Notes under the pieces: generated by a model
Seen by the model: the letters and a program-made list of their open reading frames with translations, nothing else
Told to the model about the DNA's origin: nothing
The model's database searches: none
Assembly (NCBI GenBank): GCA_023384105.1
Contig: JAHDXR010000013.1
Location: 1 to 64,000, forward strand
Reading direction: 5' to 3'
DNA length: 64,000 bases
Source of the DNA: Hyphomonadaceae bacterium
GTDB lineage: Bacteria; Pseudomonadota; Alphaproteobacteria; Caulobacterales; Aquidulcibacteraceae
In this document: positions 3,051-51,165 of the stretch, in pieces
How positions within the stretch are numbered: position 1 is the stretch's first letter
Layout: each line of letters starts with the position of its first letter
Position numbers and translations under genes: made by a program

Positions 3051-4568
<1,518 letters not shown>

Positions 4569-6348: not shown

Positions 6349-7395
6349 TCATGCGCCCGCTCCATGCCGGGCCATCAGCCGCATCAGCACGCCCTCGCGC
6401 AAGCCCCGGTCGGCGACGCGGACGCGCTTGACCGGCCAAACGCGCAGCACAGCGTCGAGGATAGCGCCGCCCATGACGACGAGATCGGCGCGGTCCTTGC
6501 CGATGCAGGCGTTGGCGGCGCGCTCCTCGCGCGTCTGCAGGAGCAGCCTGTCGATGGTGCGGCGGCAATCGTTCACGTCGAACCACATGCCGTCGACGCG
6601 GCCGCGATTGTAGCGCGGCAGGTCGAGGAAGACGCCGGCGAGGCTGGTGACGGTGCCGGAAGTGCCGATGATGTCGCCACGGCCTTCGGCGAAGCTGGAG
6701 CGCAGATGCTGCGCGGCGCCGACCGGGGCGATCACCTCGGCCAGCCGCGCGACCAGAGCGTCGTACCAGGCGCGCTTGTCGCCGCTCTCGGGCTCCGGCT
6801 CGTCCTCGGCCAAGGTGACGACGCCGAGCGGGCACGTGCCCCAGGAAATGATCGGCGGATTGAGCCGCGCGCCGAGAATGGCGCTGGGAGCCACCCAGGA
6901 CATCTCGGTCGAGCCGCCGCCGATGTCGACGATCATCGCGTGCTCGGCGCGCGGTTCGAGCAGGCTGGCGCAGCCGAGCACAGAGAGGCGCGCTTCCTCC
7001 TCCGGCGAGATCACATCGAACCTCAAGCCGAGATCCTTCTCGACGCGCCTCAGAAACACGTCGCCGTTCGACGCCGCGCGGCAGGCTTGCGTCGCCACGC
7101 AGCCGACGGCGACGGGCGCGCGCGCCTCGATCCGCTGCGCGCACGCGGCGAGCGCCTGGTACGCGCGCGCCATCGCGCCTTCGCTCAAGCGCCCGGTGTG
7201 CGCCAGCCCTTCGCCCAGGCGCACGATGCGCGAAAAGCCGTCGACGACGCGCAAGCCGCCGTCGGCGGCCTGCACCGCCATCAGCAGACGACAATTGTTG
7301 GTGCCCAGATCGAGCGCCGCGAAAACGGGTGCGCGCGATCGCGGGCCGTGGCGCGCGCCGCTCCGCGGCGTCCGCGCCCGCCCATCACTGACCAT
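6349..7395 (-). CDS. ppx: Ppx/GppA family exopolyphosphatase
   Basis: Member of the Ppx/GppA phosphatase family, which hydrolyse polyphosphate or pppGpp. The ASKHA-fold start FAALDLGTNNCRLLMAV is clear, followed by the phosphate-binding segment IVDIGGGSTEMSW and GTSGTVTSLAGV. I chose the ATG at 7395 (348 residues). The frame stays open upstream to 7776, but that region is hydrophilic and unlike the family and overlaps the hspQ leader. Like many alphaproteobacterial members it lacks the C-terminal HD-type domain of E. coli Ppx. Whether it acts on polyP or pppGpp is not decidable here. Confidence 0.85.
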   Translation of the reverse strand: MVSDGRARTPRSGARHGPRSRAPVFAALDLGTNNCRLLMAVQAADGGLRVVDGFSRIVRLGEGLAHTGRLSEGAMARAYQALAACAQRIEARAPVAVGCVATQACRAASNGDVFLRRVEKDLGLRFDVISPEEEARLSVLGCASLLEPRAEHAMIVDIGGGSTEMSWVAPSAILGARLNPPIISWGTCPLGVVTLAEDEPEPESGDKRAWYDALVARLAEVIAPVGAAQHLRSSFAEGRGDIIGTSGTVTSLAGVFLDLPRYNRGRVDGMWFDVNDCRRTIDRLLLQTREERAANACIGKDRADLVVMGGAILDAVLRVWPVKRVRVADRGLREGVLMRLMARHGAGA

Positions 7396-7630: not shown

Positions 7631-7954
7631 ATGCAAGAAGCCAAATTCTCCATCGGCCAAGTGGTGCGCCACAGGCTTTTTCCGTTCCGGGGCGTCGTGT
7701 TCGACGTCGACCCGGAATTCTCCAACACGGAAGAGTGGCTCGACGCCATTCCGGAGCCGGTGCGCCCGGACCGCAAGCAGCCCTTCTACCACCTCTTCGC
7801 GGAGAACTCCGACAGCCATTACGTTGCCTACGTCTCCGAACAGAACCTCATCGCCGACGACAGCGGCGAGCCGATCGATCACCCCTCGATCGATCTCCTG
7901 TTCGAGGAAACGGACGACGGCGCCTACAAGCTGAAGCGCGAAGCGCTGAACTGA
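7631..7954 (+). CDS. hspQ: Heat shock protein HspQ (hemimethylated-DNA-binding fold)
   Basis: HspQ/YccV family protein. In E. coli it is a Lon-specificity factor and binds hemimethylated DNA. Motifs FSIGQVVRHRLFPFRGVVFDVDPEF and the AENSDSHYVAYVSEQNL core span almost the whole 107 residues. The ATG at 7631 is fixed by a strong GGAGG-type ribosome site (7621-7628). The longer open frame from 7487 is not needed. The 235 bp upstream hold no other gene; CTTG at 7558 with CATACG 18 bases later is a weak heat-shock (sigma-32-like) promoter candidate. Confidence 0.9.
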   Translation: MQEAKFSIGQVVRHRLFPFRGVVFDVDPEFSNTEEWLDAIPEPVRPDRKQPFYHLFAENSDSHYVAYVSEQNLIADDSGEPIDHPSIDLLFEETDDGAYKLKREALN

Positions 7955-18588: not shown

Positions 18589-20436
18589 ATGTCGGAGTCA
18601 CTGCATCTGGGCGAGCCGGCCGATGAAACGGCCTGGCGCGCGCTGGTCGAACGGGGTTTGAAGGGCGCGTCCTGGGCTCGCCTGGTGGGCAGGACCGGCG
18701 ACGGCTTGCCGATCGAACCGCTCTACCGTGAAACCGACATCGCCACGGCGGAGGACGTGTCGGGCGTTCCCGGCGCCGCGCCGTTCGTGCGCGGCGCGCG
18801 CGCGGGCGGCTGGCTGATCCGGCAAACGTTCGCCCATCCCGATCCCGAACAGACCAACCGCGAAATCCTGGCGGATCTAACAGGCGGCGTCGGCGGGATC
18901 GAACTGACGCTCGACCGCACCGGGCGGCGCGGCGTGCGGATCGGGAGCGCGGCGGATTTCGACGTAGCTTTGGCCGACGTGATCCTGGAGGCGGCGCCGG
19001 TTTCGCTCGACGCCGGCGCGGACGCGGCCTGGGCCGCGGAGCTGCTCGAAGCGAAGCTTAGAGGCGTCGCCGCGCCGGGCACGGCGTTCAACCTCGATCC
19101 GGTCGGCGCGGGCGGGGACCTTGCCGCCGCCGCCGCGTTCGCGGCGCGGCTGCGCGCCGAATTGCCGAACGCGCGAACGCTGCGCGCCGATGCGCGGCCG
19201 GTGCACGAAGCCGGCGGCGCGGAGGCGCAGGAAATCGCCGCGGCGCTTGCGAGCGGCATCGCTTATCTGCGCGCGCTCGGCGAGGCCGGCGTCGACCCCG
19301 ACGAGGCCCGCAAGGCGATCGCGTTCGCCGTCGCCGTCGGGCCGGACACGCTGATCGAGACGGCCAAACTGCGCGCGCTGCGGCTCGCCTGGGCGCGGGT
19401 GATGGAAGCGTCGGGCGCGGCGCCCGAGGCGCGTGCGGCCTACATCCACGCCTTCACCGGCCGGCGCATGCTGACGCGCTACGACGCCTGGACCAACATC
19501 CTGCGCATCACCACGGCGGCGTTCGCCGCGGCCGTGGGCGGCGCCGACGTGGTGACGACCGCGAACTTCACCGACGCGCTCGGCCTGCCGACGCCGTTCG
19601 CGCGGCGCGTCGCGCGCAACACCCAAGCCGTGCTGCTGGAAGAGTGCCGGCTCGGCCACGTCGCCGACCCCGCCGGCGGCGCCTGGTTCGTGGAGAAGCT
19701 GACGCGCGAGCTTGCCGCCAAGGCCTGGGAGATCATGCAGCTGATCGAGAGCAAGGGCGGCATGAGCGCGGCGCTCGAAAGCGGGCTGCTCGAAGATCTC
19801 GTCGCCGGCGCGCGCGCGGCGCGGCAGAAGCTGATCGCGACGCGCCGCGAGACCATCACCGGCGTGACCGACTATCCGCTGCTCGGCGCGGCTGCGCCGG
19901 AGGTCGACACAGGAGCGCGGGTCTTCAGACTCGCATCTGGCGTCTCCGCCGGTGATGCGGGTCTGAAGACCCGCGCTCCTCTGAAACCGATCCGCTGGGC
20001 CGAACCGTTCGAGGCGCTACGCGACCGCGCCGAGGCGATCCAGCCGCGGCCGTCCGTGTTCTTCGCCAACATGGCCGCGCTCGCCGAGTTCGGCCCGCGC
20101 GCGCAATGGGCGCGCAATCTGTTCGCCGCCGGCGGCGTCGGCGCCGTCGGCGAAGAAGACGCCTACCCGACCATGGAAGCGCTGATCGACGCGTTCCGCG
20201 CCTCGAAAGCGCGCGTCGCCGTGATCGCCAGCACCGATTCCTGCTACGCCGAGCACGCGGAAAACTGCGCGCAGCGCCTGAAGGCGGCGGGCGCCGGCTG
20301 GGTGCTGCTCGCCGGCAAGCCGGGCGAGAGCGAAGCCAGGCTGCGCGCCGCGGGCGTGGACCAGTTCGTTTACACCGGCGTCGATGCGCTGAAAGAACTC
20401 GAGACGCTGCACGCGGCGTTGGGGATTGGCGGATGA
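18589..20436 (+). CDS. mutA: Methylmalonyl-CoA mutase, small subunit
   Basis: Non-catalytic subunit of adenosylcobalamin-dependent methylmalonyl-CoA mutase, linking propionyl-CoA breakdown to succinyl-CoA. About 615 residues: a TIM-barrel-like half (EPLYRETDIATAED; LTRYDAWTNILRITTAAFAA) and a degenerate B12 domain lacking the DxHxxG motif. ATG 18589 has a GGAG site; ATG 18568 is an in-frame alternative. A palindrome at 19911-19980 lies in frame near residue 445-465, between the barrel and the B12 domain, and encodes a TGARVFRLASGVSAGDAG-type insert. It forms a unit with the large subunit gene downstream. Confidence 0.92.
   Translation: MSESLHLGEPADETAWRALVERGLKGASWARLVGRTGDGLPIEPLYRETDIATAEDVSGVPGAAPFVRGARAGGWLIRQTFAHPDPEQTNREILADLTGGVGGIELTLDRTGRRGVRIGSAADFDVALADVILEAAPVSLDAGADAAWAAELLEAKLRGVAAPGTAFNLDPVGAGGDLAAAAAFAARLRAELPNARTLRADARPVHEAGGAEAQEIAAALASGIAYLRALGEAGVDPDEARKAIAFAVAVGPDTLIETAKLRALRLAWARVMEASGAAPEARAAYIHAFTGRRMLTRYDAWTNILRITTAAFAAAVGGADVVTTANFTDALGLPTPFARRVARNTQAVLLEECRLGHVADPAGGAWFVEKLTRELAAKAWEIMQLIESKGGMSAALESGLLEDLVAGARAARQKLIATRRETITGVTDYPLLGAAAPEVDTGARVFRLASGVSAGDAGLKTRAPLKPIRWAEPFEALRDRAEAIQPRPSVFFANMAALAEFGPRAQWARNLFAAGGVGAVGEEDAYPTMEALIDAFRASKARVAVIASTDSCYAEHAENCAQRLKAAGAGWVLLAGKPGESEARLRAAGVDQFVYTGVDALKELETLHAALGIGG
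19911..19980. repeat. Palindrome B inside mutA, perfect 19-bp arms
   Basis: AGGAGCGCGGGTCTTCAGA (19911-19929) and its exact complement (19962-19980) flank a 32-base middle that itself can pair (GCATC/GATGC). The mutA frame reads through without a stop, giving an extra peptide in the linker between the two mutase domains. The ends GGAGCGCG/CGCGCTCC also occur inside the composite element at 23053-23196. Confidence 0.9.
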
Positions 20437-22765: not shown

Positions 22766-22766
22766 T

Positions 22767-22862
22767 ATGGACCGCCGGCGCCCTCGCCGGCAACGGCGTC
22801 TCAGCTTGTACTGGCGGCGCCAGTCGAAGCGTCGCATGCCGGCGAGGGCGCCGGCGGTCCAT
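22767..22862. repeat. Palindromic element A with perfect 26-bp ends
   Basis: The best-preserved simple copy: 26-base perfect inverted ends (22767-22792 and 22837-22862) starting ATGGACCGCCGGCGCCCTCG, 96 bp overall. It begins directly after the mutB stop codon and ends 30 bp before the yhhN-like gene. Confidence 0.95.
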
Positions 22863-22892
22863 CTTGGCGCCCGCATGTGGGCGGATTGACTC

Positions 22893-23705
22893 GTGAAACC
22901 GACCGGTCTTCAGACAGCGCTGCTCGCGGCGTCCGCCATCCTCGCCGCCGCTTACGGCGCGCTTGGTTCGGGCCTTTACGACGGCGCGCCGCCCTACGCG
23001 CTGCCCGCGCTGTTCAAAGCCTCCGGCATCGTCGTCCTCGCGCTCATCGCAATATGGACCGCCGGCGCCTCGCCGGCCGGCGCTGACGTCGGCAAGTTGG
23101 AGCGCGCGACTTCCGGTCGCGCAAGCGTCGCCGGAAGCGACGCGCTCCCTCCTTCAGAAGCCGGCGCAATGCCGGCGAGGGCGCCGGCGGTCCATAATAA
23201 GCTGCTCGCCGCCGGGCTTCTCTTCGGCGCGCTGGGCGATGTGCTGCTGGCCTGGAGCCCCGACACGTTCCTCTACGGCGCGTTCGCGTTCCTGATCGGG
23301 CACCTGTTCTACATCACGCTGTTCCTGCGCGCCGGCCTCGGCGTCGCCGCGCTGAGGCAACCGCCACGTCTCCTCGGCGCAATCGCGCTCATCGCCGCCG
23401 CCGTCCTCATGACCTTGCTGCTGGCGCCGCGCGGCAACGCCATGTTCGCGCCGCTCAGCCTCTATACCGGCGTGCTGACATGCATGGCGCTCGCCGCCTT
23501 CACGCTGCCCGGCGCGCGCTGGCTGGCGATGGCGGGCGCGGTGTTGTTCTTCGTCAGCGACGGCTTCGTCGCCTGGAACCTGTTCCATCCCGATCCCAAC
23601 CCCGCGCTCGCCCACTGGCGCAGCTTCACCGGCTGGATGATCTACTGGGCCGGCCAGGCGGGCATCTGTTTCGGCGCGCTCGGCCTGCACCGTACATCGA
23701 GGTAA
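22893..23705 (+). CDS. YhhN/TMEM86 family membrane protein (lysoplasmalogenase-like) with palindrome-encoded insert
   Basis: Integral membrane protein of about eight helices, related to YhhN and TMEM86 lysoplasmalogenases. Family-type segments are LLFGALGDVLLAW, FLIGHLFYITLFL and WMIYWAGQAGICFGALGL. The start is GTG 22893 (270 residues). Between the second and third helices the protein carries a hydrophilic stretch of 48 codons (TAGASPAGADVG... to ARAPAVH) encoded by a complete copy of element A at 23053-23196. That explains why it is longer than usual YhhN proteins (roughly 200-220). Whether the protein still works is unknown. Confidence 0.8.
   Translation: MKPTGLQTALLAASAILAAAYGALGSGLYDGAPPYALPALFKASGIVVLALIAIWTAGASPAGADVGKLERATSGRASVAGSDALPPSEAGAMPARAPAVHNKLLAAGLLFGALGDVLLAWSPDTFLYGAFAFLIGHLFYITLFLRAGLGVAALRQPPRLLGAIALIAAAVLMTLLLAPRGNAMFAPLSLYTGVLTCMALAAFTLPGARWLAMAGAVLFFVSDGFVAWNLFHPDPNPALAHWRSFTGWMIYWAGQAGICFGALGLHRTSR
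23053..23196. repeat. Palindromic element A inserted in frame within the yhhN-like gene
   Basis: Ends TATGGACCGCCGGCGCC (from 23053) and the matching right end (to 23196) differ from the copy at 22767-22862 by one missing base. The element is 144 bp, exactly 48 codons, with no stop in the host frame. It is about 48 bp longer than the 96-bp copies; the surplus carries a nested inverted repeat GGAGCGCG (23099-23106) / CGCGCTCC (23141-23148), the same ends as palindrome B in mutA. Confidence 0.92.
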
Positions 23706-30905: not shown

Positions 30906-30912
30906 AGCGGAT

Positions 30913-31166
30913 ATGGACCGCCGGCGTCCCGCCGGCCTGCGCCATTTCAGCTTCAAGCCGCATACAGGATGAAGCGGTGTTGCCCAACCAGAGTCATTCC
31001 GGGCGGAGCGAAGCGGAGACCCGGAACCCAGGGCAGCCGGCGCATCGTTTGCCCTGGGTTCCGGATCGCGCTCCGCGCGTTCGGAATGACGCAACGAACA
31101 GGAGGACAGATCTCCAGCCGCATACAGGATGAAACGCCGTATGTCGGCTGGAAGCCGGCGGTCCAT
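30913..31166. repeat. Composite element A with nested GTCATTCCG palindrome
   Basis: Outer ends ATGGACCGCCGGC (30913-30925) and GCCGGCGGTCCAT (31154-31166), 254 bp. Inside is a second palindrome, GAGTCATTCCG (30991-31001) with TCGGAATGAC (31081-31090), flanked by an 18-base direct repeat AGCCGCATACAGGATGAA (30956-30973 and 31116-31133). It lies between the convergent methyltransferase and dnaE2 genes. Confidence 0.9.
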
Positions 31167-31174
31167 GGGGGCGG

Positions 31175-50972: not shown

Positions 50973-51165
50973 CGCCCCTATGGACCGCCGGCGTCCCGCC
51001 GGCCTGCGCGATGCTTCAACCCGAGTCATTCCGGACGCGCGGAGCGCGATCCGGAACCCAGGGCAAACAATGTACCGGCGGCGCATACGCGCCTCCGCCC
51101 GGAATGACTCGCTGGCTTGCAAGCGAAGGCGCAGGGCGGCGGGGCACCGGCGGTCCATAGGGGCG
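50973..51165. repeat. Composite element A with nested GTCATTCCG palindrome (before glnE 3' end)
   Basis: Outer 19-base perfect ends CGCCCCTATGGACCGCCGG (50973-50991) and complement (51147-51165), 193 bp. The inner palindrome GAGTCATTCCG (51023-51033) / CGGAATGACTC (51100-51110) matches the core of the 30913 copy. It fills the gap between the PleC-like kinase and the convergent glnE gene. Confidence 0.92.

Follow-up and report, generated by a model that had tools for sequence, protein, structure and literature searches.

An in-frame REPIN-like palindrome in a yhhN gene of a Hyphomonadaceae bacterium and its counterparts in other genes of the genus

A 144-nt palindrome, here called element A, lies in frame within a yhhN-family membrane protein gene of a Hyphomonadaceae bacterium, in a window of 64,000 nt (the whole stretch of DNA analysed). 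We consider it likely that this REPIN-like palindrome, for which a REP-associated tyrosine transposase (RAYT) is the most likely agent of spread, landed in a loop of the YhhN protein, and that in this and other genes of the genus insertion takes place blind to the reading frame and is followed by a filter at the protein level.

The host protein matches PF07947 (YhhN) with an E-value of 1.4e-31, and its frame is open from the GTG at 22893 to the stop at 23705, across the insert. This confirms the first-pass annotation, which had described a complete 144-bp copy with both ends, in frame and stop-free, in a yhhN-like gene: the insert runs TATGGACCGCCGGCG...CGCCGGCGGTCCATA, and both ends and both arms are complete (Table 1). 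An alignment with YhhN homologs of relatives lacking the element, as had been proposed, bears out the insertion. Among 21 aligned sequences of the same genus (own included), 17 show a short native turn of the LLARS type and no insert; inserts are found in four (G000, G003, G007, G028), all at one codon, where G000 denotes the genome under study, assembled in 28 contigs. G000, G003 and G007 have the flanking bases in common, and four native codons are absent at the site. Since these codons are absent in the carriers, an element of 48 codons results in a net gain of 44, and the initial statement that exactly 48 codons were added has to be corrected.

Outside the insert, dN/dS among the three carriers with an intact gene (G000, G003, G007) amounts to 0.19–0.27, and a pair of non-carriers gives 0.17. 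Thus, yhhN appears to be alive and, as far as substitution patterns tell, is under purifying selection. A frameshift showing the gene to be dead had been named as one finding that would speak against the insertion; the frame is intact in three assemblies. It is true that the N-terminal part of yhhN is missing in G028, and that many of the genomes are fragmented, with the element in some cases at contig ends (uvrC of G012). Nevertheless, a dead or dying pseudogene or an assembly artefact is hardly credible, given an intact frame with the insert at one codon position in three separate assemblies, the dN/dS values above and the presence of inserts in housekeeping genes as well. In G028 (L077, approx. 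3340–3430), the yhhN remnant starts at the inner hairpin, directly after the apparent stop of the upstream gene, which looks as if a deletion had ended at the element.

Table 1. Positions of features in the window and forms of the yhhN insert in the carrier genomes
Feature	Position	Strand	Remarks
78 nt in frame in methylmalonyl-CoA mutase gene	19903..19980	+	palindrome of another family, arms 19911-19930 and 19961-19980
Further copy of element A, 98 nt	22766..22863	.	between stop of mutase gene and yhhN
yhhN-family membrane protein gene, GTG start, 270 aa, houses element A	22893..23705	+	PF07947; alignment with 20 other same-genus sequences
Element A, 144-nt palindrome	23053..23196	+	host codons 54-101; net +44 codons compared with relatives
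Left REP-like arm TATGGACCGCCGGCGCCTCGCCGGC	23053..23077	+	sequence; arm type recurs in other copies
Inner hairpin GGAGCGCG...CGCGCTCC within spacer	23099..23148	+	
Right REP-like arm, inverted	23171..23196	-	sequence, inverted repeats
yhhN insert, G000			144 nt
yhhN insert, G003			long form; left arm and interior kept, right arm lost
yhhN insert, G007			66-nt short form
yhhN insert, G028			inner hairpin only; N-terminal part of gene gone

The structural context of the insert was assessed using AlphaFold2 (20 sequences, mean pLDDT 86). Helices at residues 36–58 and 98–121 are confident, and between them residues 61–100 have a block pLDDT of 51–61, with a low-confidence helix at 61–75. The model supports the earlier placement of the insert in the loop that joins helices 2 and 3. 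One copy of the element would have landed in this loop and replaced four native codons; in its phase, the stop-free reading is W-T-A-G...P-A-V-H, and purifying selection on the gene would have continued. The insert is presumably translated, and tolerance of the loop would be the reason for its survival.

A typical copy of element A has inverted arms, TATGGACC-GCCGGCG-TCC/CCCT-CGCCGGC and the reverse complement, with a spacer between them. Folded as single-stranded DNA, the 144-nt element reaches −67.7 kcal/mol (z = −9.65 compared with 200 shuffles); in the mRNA, a very stable hairpin is predicted for the insert (−108 kcal/mol, z = −9.1). With at most 1 mismatch, 394 occurrences of the half-site ATGGACCGCCGGCG were counted in the own genome (reversed control: 4). 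Across the 61 genomes searched, counts range from 4 to 209 in the other 29 genomes of the genus and from 0 to 16 in 31 genomes outside it. Paired copies were collected from 1.64 Mb, i.e., 45% of the own genome, allowing at most 3 mismatches over two 12-nt arms; the resulting 92 pairs include some chance matches (e.g., C17 149887). In relatives, where the pattern search was for the short form only, lengths were chiefly 64–66 and 45 nt. A separate element B nested in element A (G003 compared with G028) was considered and dropped, as an inner hairpin of this kind recurs in many long copies; outside element A, exact pairs of GGAGCGCG...CGCGCTCC were found four times in the sample. The spacer of long copies at 30912–31167 and 50979–51159 of the window contains another repeat, GTCATTCCGG...CCGGAACCCA, which looks nested. 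Duplication of a TA target site was unsupported, since genic copies are in frame at 45, 64, 65, 66 and 144 nt and native codons are absent. A census of 12-mers in the own genome (C17, C24 and the window) also contained a large CRISPR-like array of approx. 145 copies, the overlapping 12-mers of which spell GCTTCAATGAGGCCTGCGCGTGATGCGCAGGAAAA.

As in REPINs, two REP-like units are arranged in inverted orientation around a spacer. Further, copies of the element are located on both sides of a Y1 transposase gene in the own genome, the product of which is a RAYT according to NCBIfam NF047646 (98.4 bits, cut-off 80). Flanks were checked at 20 Y1_Tnp loci out of 44 listed matches, the NF047646 identity referring to the own genome. 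Arms were present on both sides at 5 of these 20 (G000, G001, G010, G022, G025), 572–640 nt apart, and not on both sides at the other 15. The Y1_Tnp gene of G013 has an arm on one side, at a contig edge, and in G003 a further match (C135 7221–7448) is found between copies at 7085–7144 and 7735–7794. We infer that a RAYT, the gene of which is bracketed by matching arms here and in some relatives, most likely spread the element. On the other hand, a Y1_Tnp match is present in 16 of the 30 same-genus genomes and absent in 14, and G021, a genome in one contig (97% complete), holds 82 half-sites and no Y1_Tnp match. These genomes appear to count against a simple dependence on the RAYT.

According to PMC3686654, GTAG REPs are defined by a 5′ tetranucleotide GT(A/G)G adjoining the palindrome, and CGTC REPs, according to PMC3733652, have an unpaired CGTC motif at one end and a tail which is mostly CCA. 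The arms of element A lack the GT(A/G)G tag and mostly start with NATGGACC or NTTGGACC; by inspection, no CGTC motif is present at the arm end. Since it has neither tag, we name the element REPIN-like and place it in neither superfamily; it is probably mobile.

Other genes of the genus would have been hit likewise. At present, 15 distinct in-frame genic sites are counted (mnmE once), which is a lower bound, as the family search covered part of the copies. The list was compiled from coding scores, Pfam, homology and reading by eye; it is unblinded, and since an open frame was partly required for verification, broken genes could be under-counted and the frame statistics are approximate. Within the own-genome sample, at least 5 of the 92 copies were verified in genes, all of them in frame: yhhN, carB, a UbiH-type FAD monooxygenase gene, mnmE and trmD. 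Among 60 loci around copies in relatives, internal copies were verified in metH, mnmG, a nifS-type desulfurase gene and uvrC (two contig ends), as well as in two methylmalonyl-CoA mutase genes, rsmE, a hydantoinase gene, an E2 acyltransferase linker and mnmE of G003. Another copy (L185) is in a gene without Pfam match, of which the own genome has a homolog. The best-known palindromes embedded in proteins are those of Rickettsia, a group with reduced genomes. The likeness to Rickettsia seen in the first-pass annotation is real here, and recurrent at 15 distinct sites.

Alignments of single genes show how the inserts are distributed. For carB (30 loci), only G000 has a copy; 27 others span the site, none with a copy that could be recognised, G016 stops short of it and the contig of G012 ends there. 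This contig (L290) ends exactly at the codon of the element in the own genome, as if the repeat had broken the assembly. The trmD insert is carried by G000 and G012 and, in a shortened form, by G007, and is missing in 17 of 20 aligned sequences. An mnmE insert is present in 6 genomes, two of which have a shortened form, and non-carriers have unrelated loops of varied length at this site. The uvrC gene of G012 is split over two contigs (L207, L208) with a 45-nt element near each end, and the linker next to the element is unlike that of the own genome. In the own genome, the glutamine amidotransferase domain of GltB is directly preceded by a 64-nt copy (C2 51444–51507, L167) within the open frame. 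This copy and one in PaaD (L210) were left out of the 15 sites because they are located before the recognised domains; both read PAV at the right arm, and their omission counters the bias reported below.

Several ways of calling host genes were discarded. The codon score as sole gene caller was too permissive opposite real genes in this GC-rich genome, and ORFs called at C23 123829, C23 228779 and C17 299320 looked antisense, the real gene at C23 228779 being trmD. A listing of spanning ORFs was uninformative, as 75 of the 92 copies have one.

Concerning the persistence of the copies in genes, two explanations had been offered at first: the element was selected or shaped to be readable, or only harmless insertions survive. 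The second is favoured and the first loses ground, since multiples of three are not preferred among the copy lengths, yet the verified genic copies keep the host frame. Of 92 copies, 29 have a length divisible by three, and 44 and 19 leave a remainder of one and two, respectively (lengths including, for each 12-nt arm, two bases beyond it). At the DNA level, insertion seems blind to the frame. As to one preferred open frame, which the first-pass annotation had proposed to look for, the genic copies use all three left-arm phases. At the 15 genic sites, the left arm is read as W-type 8 times, as GPPA 5 times and as DRRR twice; for the right arm, the reading is PAV[HQ] at 10 sites, AG-type at 5 and arginine-rich RRRS at none. 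Assuming equal thirds, binomial probabilities are 0.0085 for at least 10 PAV and 0.0023 for zero RRRS on the right, and 0.088 for at least 8 W and 0.079 for at most 2 DRRR on the left, all to be taken as a guide only, as the list is unblinded. A filter at the protein level would retain copies that are in frame and placed in loops, mostly in the two frames which are not arginine-rich.

Alternatively, the element might carry a built-in open frame aiding survival in genes, similar to Rickettsia palindromic elements (RPEs). In 71 copies of 60–150 nt, a mean of 4.10 out of 6 frames is open, compared with 3.46 in shuffles. This mild excess points toward readability, but related GC-rich palindromes could yield such an excess. 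The 45-nt form is genic in all three cases in the G000 sample (carB, the ubiH-type gene, trmD) and at 5 of 6 places in G012 (nifS-type, metH, mnmG and uvrC at two contig ends). Nevertheless, with lengths not enriched for multiples of three, all left-arm phases in use and 5 of the 92 sampled copies verified as genic (the check covering part of the copies), we judge selection of the element for readability to be unlikely. Since only 29 of 92 lengths are divisible by three, the protein-level filter is favoured as the better fit to the sequences.

Two screens of loci in relatives bear on this filter. In a homology screen against the own genome, which did not require an open frame in the relative, seven loci are continuous and stop-free (L185, L203, L206, L215, L233, L249, L257); of the other rows, two are continuous and contain a stop (L197, L259), two are shifted and have stops within the locus (L216, L237), and L196 corresponds to the GltB copy of the own genome. 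In a score screen of the 60 loci, both flanks were coding-like in 16, 11 of which are continuous and 5 shifted (L216, L240, L241, L242, L260). As L216 has stops in the locus and L241 resembles a gene start by eye, L240, L242 and L260 are left and are counted against the frame filter. Among the continuous rows, L209 and L211 have no Pfam match and L221 is located before its domain; the Pfam check left out L229.

Translational bypassing has precedents elsewhere, and a hairpin of −108 kcal/mol in the middle of an mRNA might invite the ribosome or an RNA process to skip it, leaving the insert untranslated. However, skipping needs neither an open frame nor a frame bias, and all verified copies are stop-free with RRRS in 0 of 15, which makes this explanation extremely improbable.

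The inserts in yhhN, mnmE and trmD are common to species which a carB tree does not place as nearest neighbours. Over the 40 codons after the yhhN insert, G000, G003 and G007 are most alike; the remainder of the gene in carriers is mostly nearer to other species, with small differences (e.g., 0.872 vs. 0.855). We suggest that short-tract recombination may have moved the inserted yhhN allele between species, a transfer which, in view of the small differences, is put forward as a suggestion only. Repeated clean loss is less likely, since losers would need the native codons back. Inserts in several species (mnmE in 6 genomes, trmD in 3, yhhN in 4) and the extreme RNA fold (z = −9.1) might also be explained if the insert had been put to use, the mRNA hairpin or the added loop regulating or modifying YhhN, MnmE or TrmD. 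This is improbable in our view: insert length and interior vary freely among carriers, most aligned relatives have no insert, yhhN of G003 lacks the right arm, and the mnmE site of non-carriers holds unrelated loops of varied length.

At some of the sites hit by element A in a relative, the own genome has a different insert. The 78-nt stretch in the mutase gene of the window (Table 1) contains a palindrome of another dispersed family, AGGAGCGCGGGTCTTCAGAC, with 19 arm-like sites in the sample (at most 4 mismatches; control 1), and G012 carries element A at this very site (L215). Similarly, the mnmG site which holds a 45-nt element A in G012 (L206) is occupied in the own genome by a different in-frame stretch of 138 nt (C24 286912–287049, L142); short hairpin-like runs were seen in it by eye, and a repeat search found no inverted repeat lying entirely within it. 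A 45-nt copy of element A that differs in its ends occupies the L185 site in the own genome. Judging from these cases, permissive loops seem to gather repeats more than once. It is conceivable, and we propose it tentatively, that in this genus a RAYT/REPIN system acts as a recurrent in-frame inserter of peptides into housekeeping proteins, with loops re-hit by different repeats and alleles of yhhN, mnmE and trmD crossing species by short-tract recombination. If true, mobile DNA would remodel protein loops genus-wide under a reading-frame filter. The loops of CarB, MnmE, TrmD and UvrC, which take 15–22 foreign residues, form a natural map of tolerated insertion sites. The hosts are apparently free-living bacteria with genomes of approx. 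2–4 Mb, a candidate transposase and many relatives with empty sites. Because of this transposase and these relatives, it is directly testable how palindromes enter genes without killing them, and whether any of them later gains a use.

Among the alphaproteobacteria with a free-living lifestyle are E. litoralis and S. alaskensis. Both are among several species for which Di Nocera et al. (2013, PMC3733652) describe intragenic REPs: GTAG and CGTC REPs and REP dimers lie wholly in genes and encode residues, and their hosts include genes for DNA repair and tRNA modification. In that paper, no RAYT gene was found flanked by CGTC units, in contrast to element A, the arms of which bracket a RAYT gene; Caulobacter, Hyphomonas and Maricaulis were not found in its main text. 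Compared with REPIN/RAYT systems as presented in PMC3116915 and PMC3686654, element A is alike in its inverted short palindromic arms with a spacer, its hundreds of half-sites per genome, its copies mostly not verified in genes and the arms flanking a RAYT gene. It differs in that the GT(A/G)G tag is missing, the spacer often has a further hairpin and copies are repeatedly in frame inside housekeeping genes. A literature search for palindromic repeats in coding genes of the genus, with most subscription journals outside its reach, found no recognised treatment.

RPEs (Ogata et al., 2000, 2002; as summarised in PMC10969869 and PMC3733652) are found in frame in unrelated genes. Compared by description, element A resembles them in being approx. 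150 nt long, palindromic and in frame in unrelated genes, with tolerance of the site modelled for yhhN; it differs from them in its host lineage, the Caulobacterales, its GC-rich arms and its RAYT association. In-frame palindromes in genes are therefore already known, as RPEs and intragenic REPs. As far as the literature was searched, the lineage, the bracketed RAYT gene with a different tag, the inserts shared across species and the proposed reading-frame filter are new.
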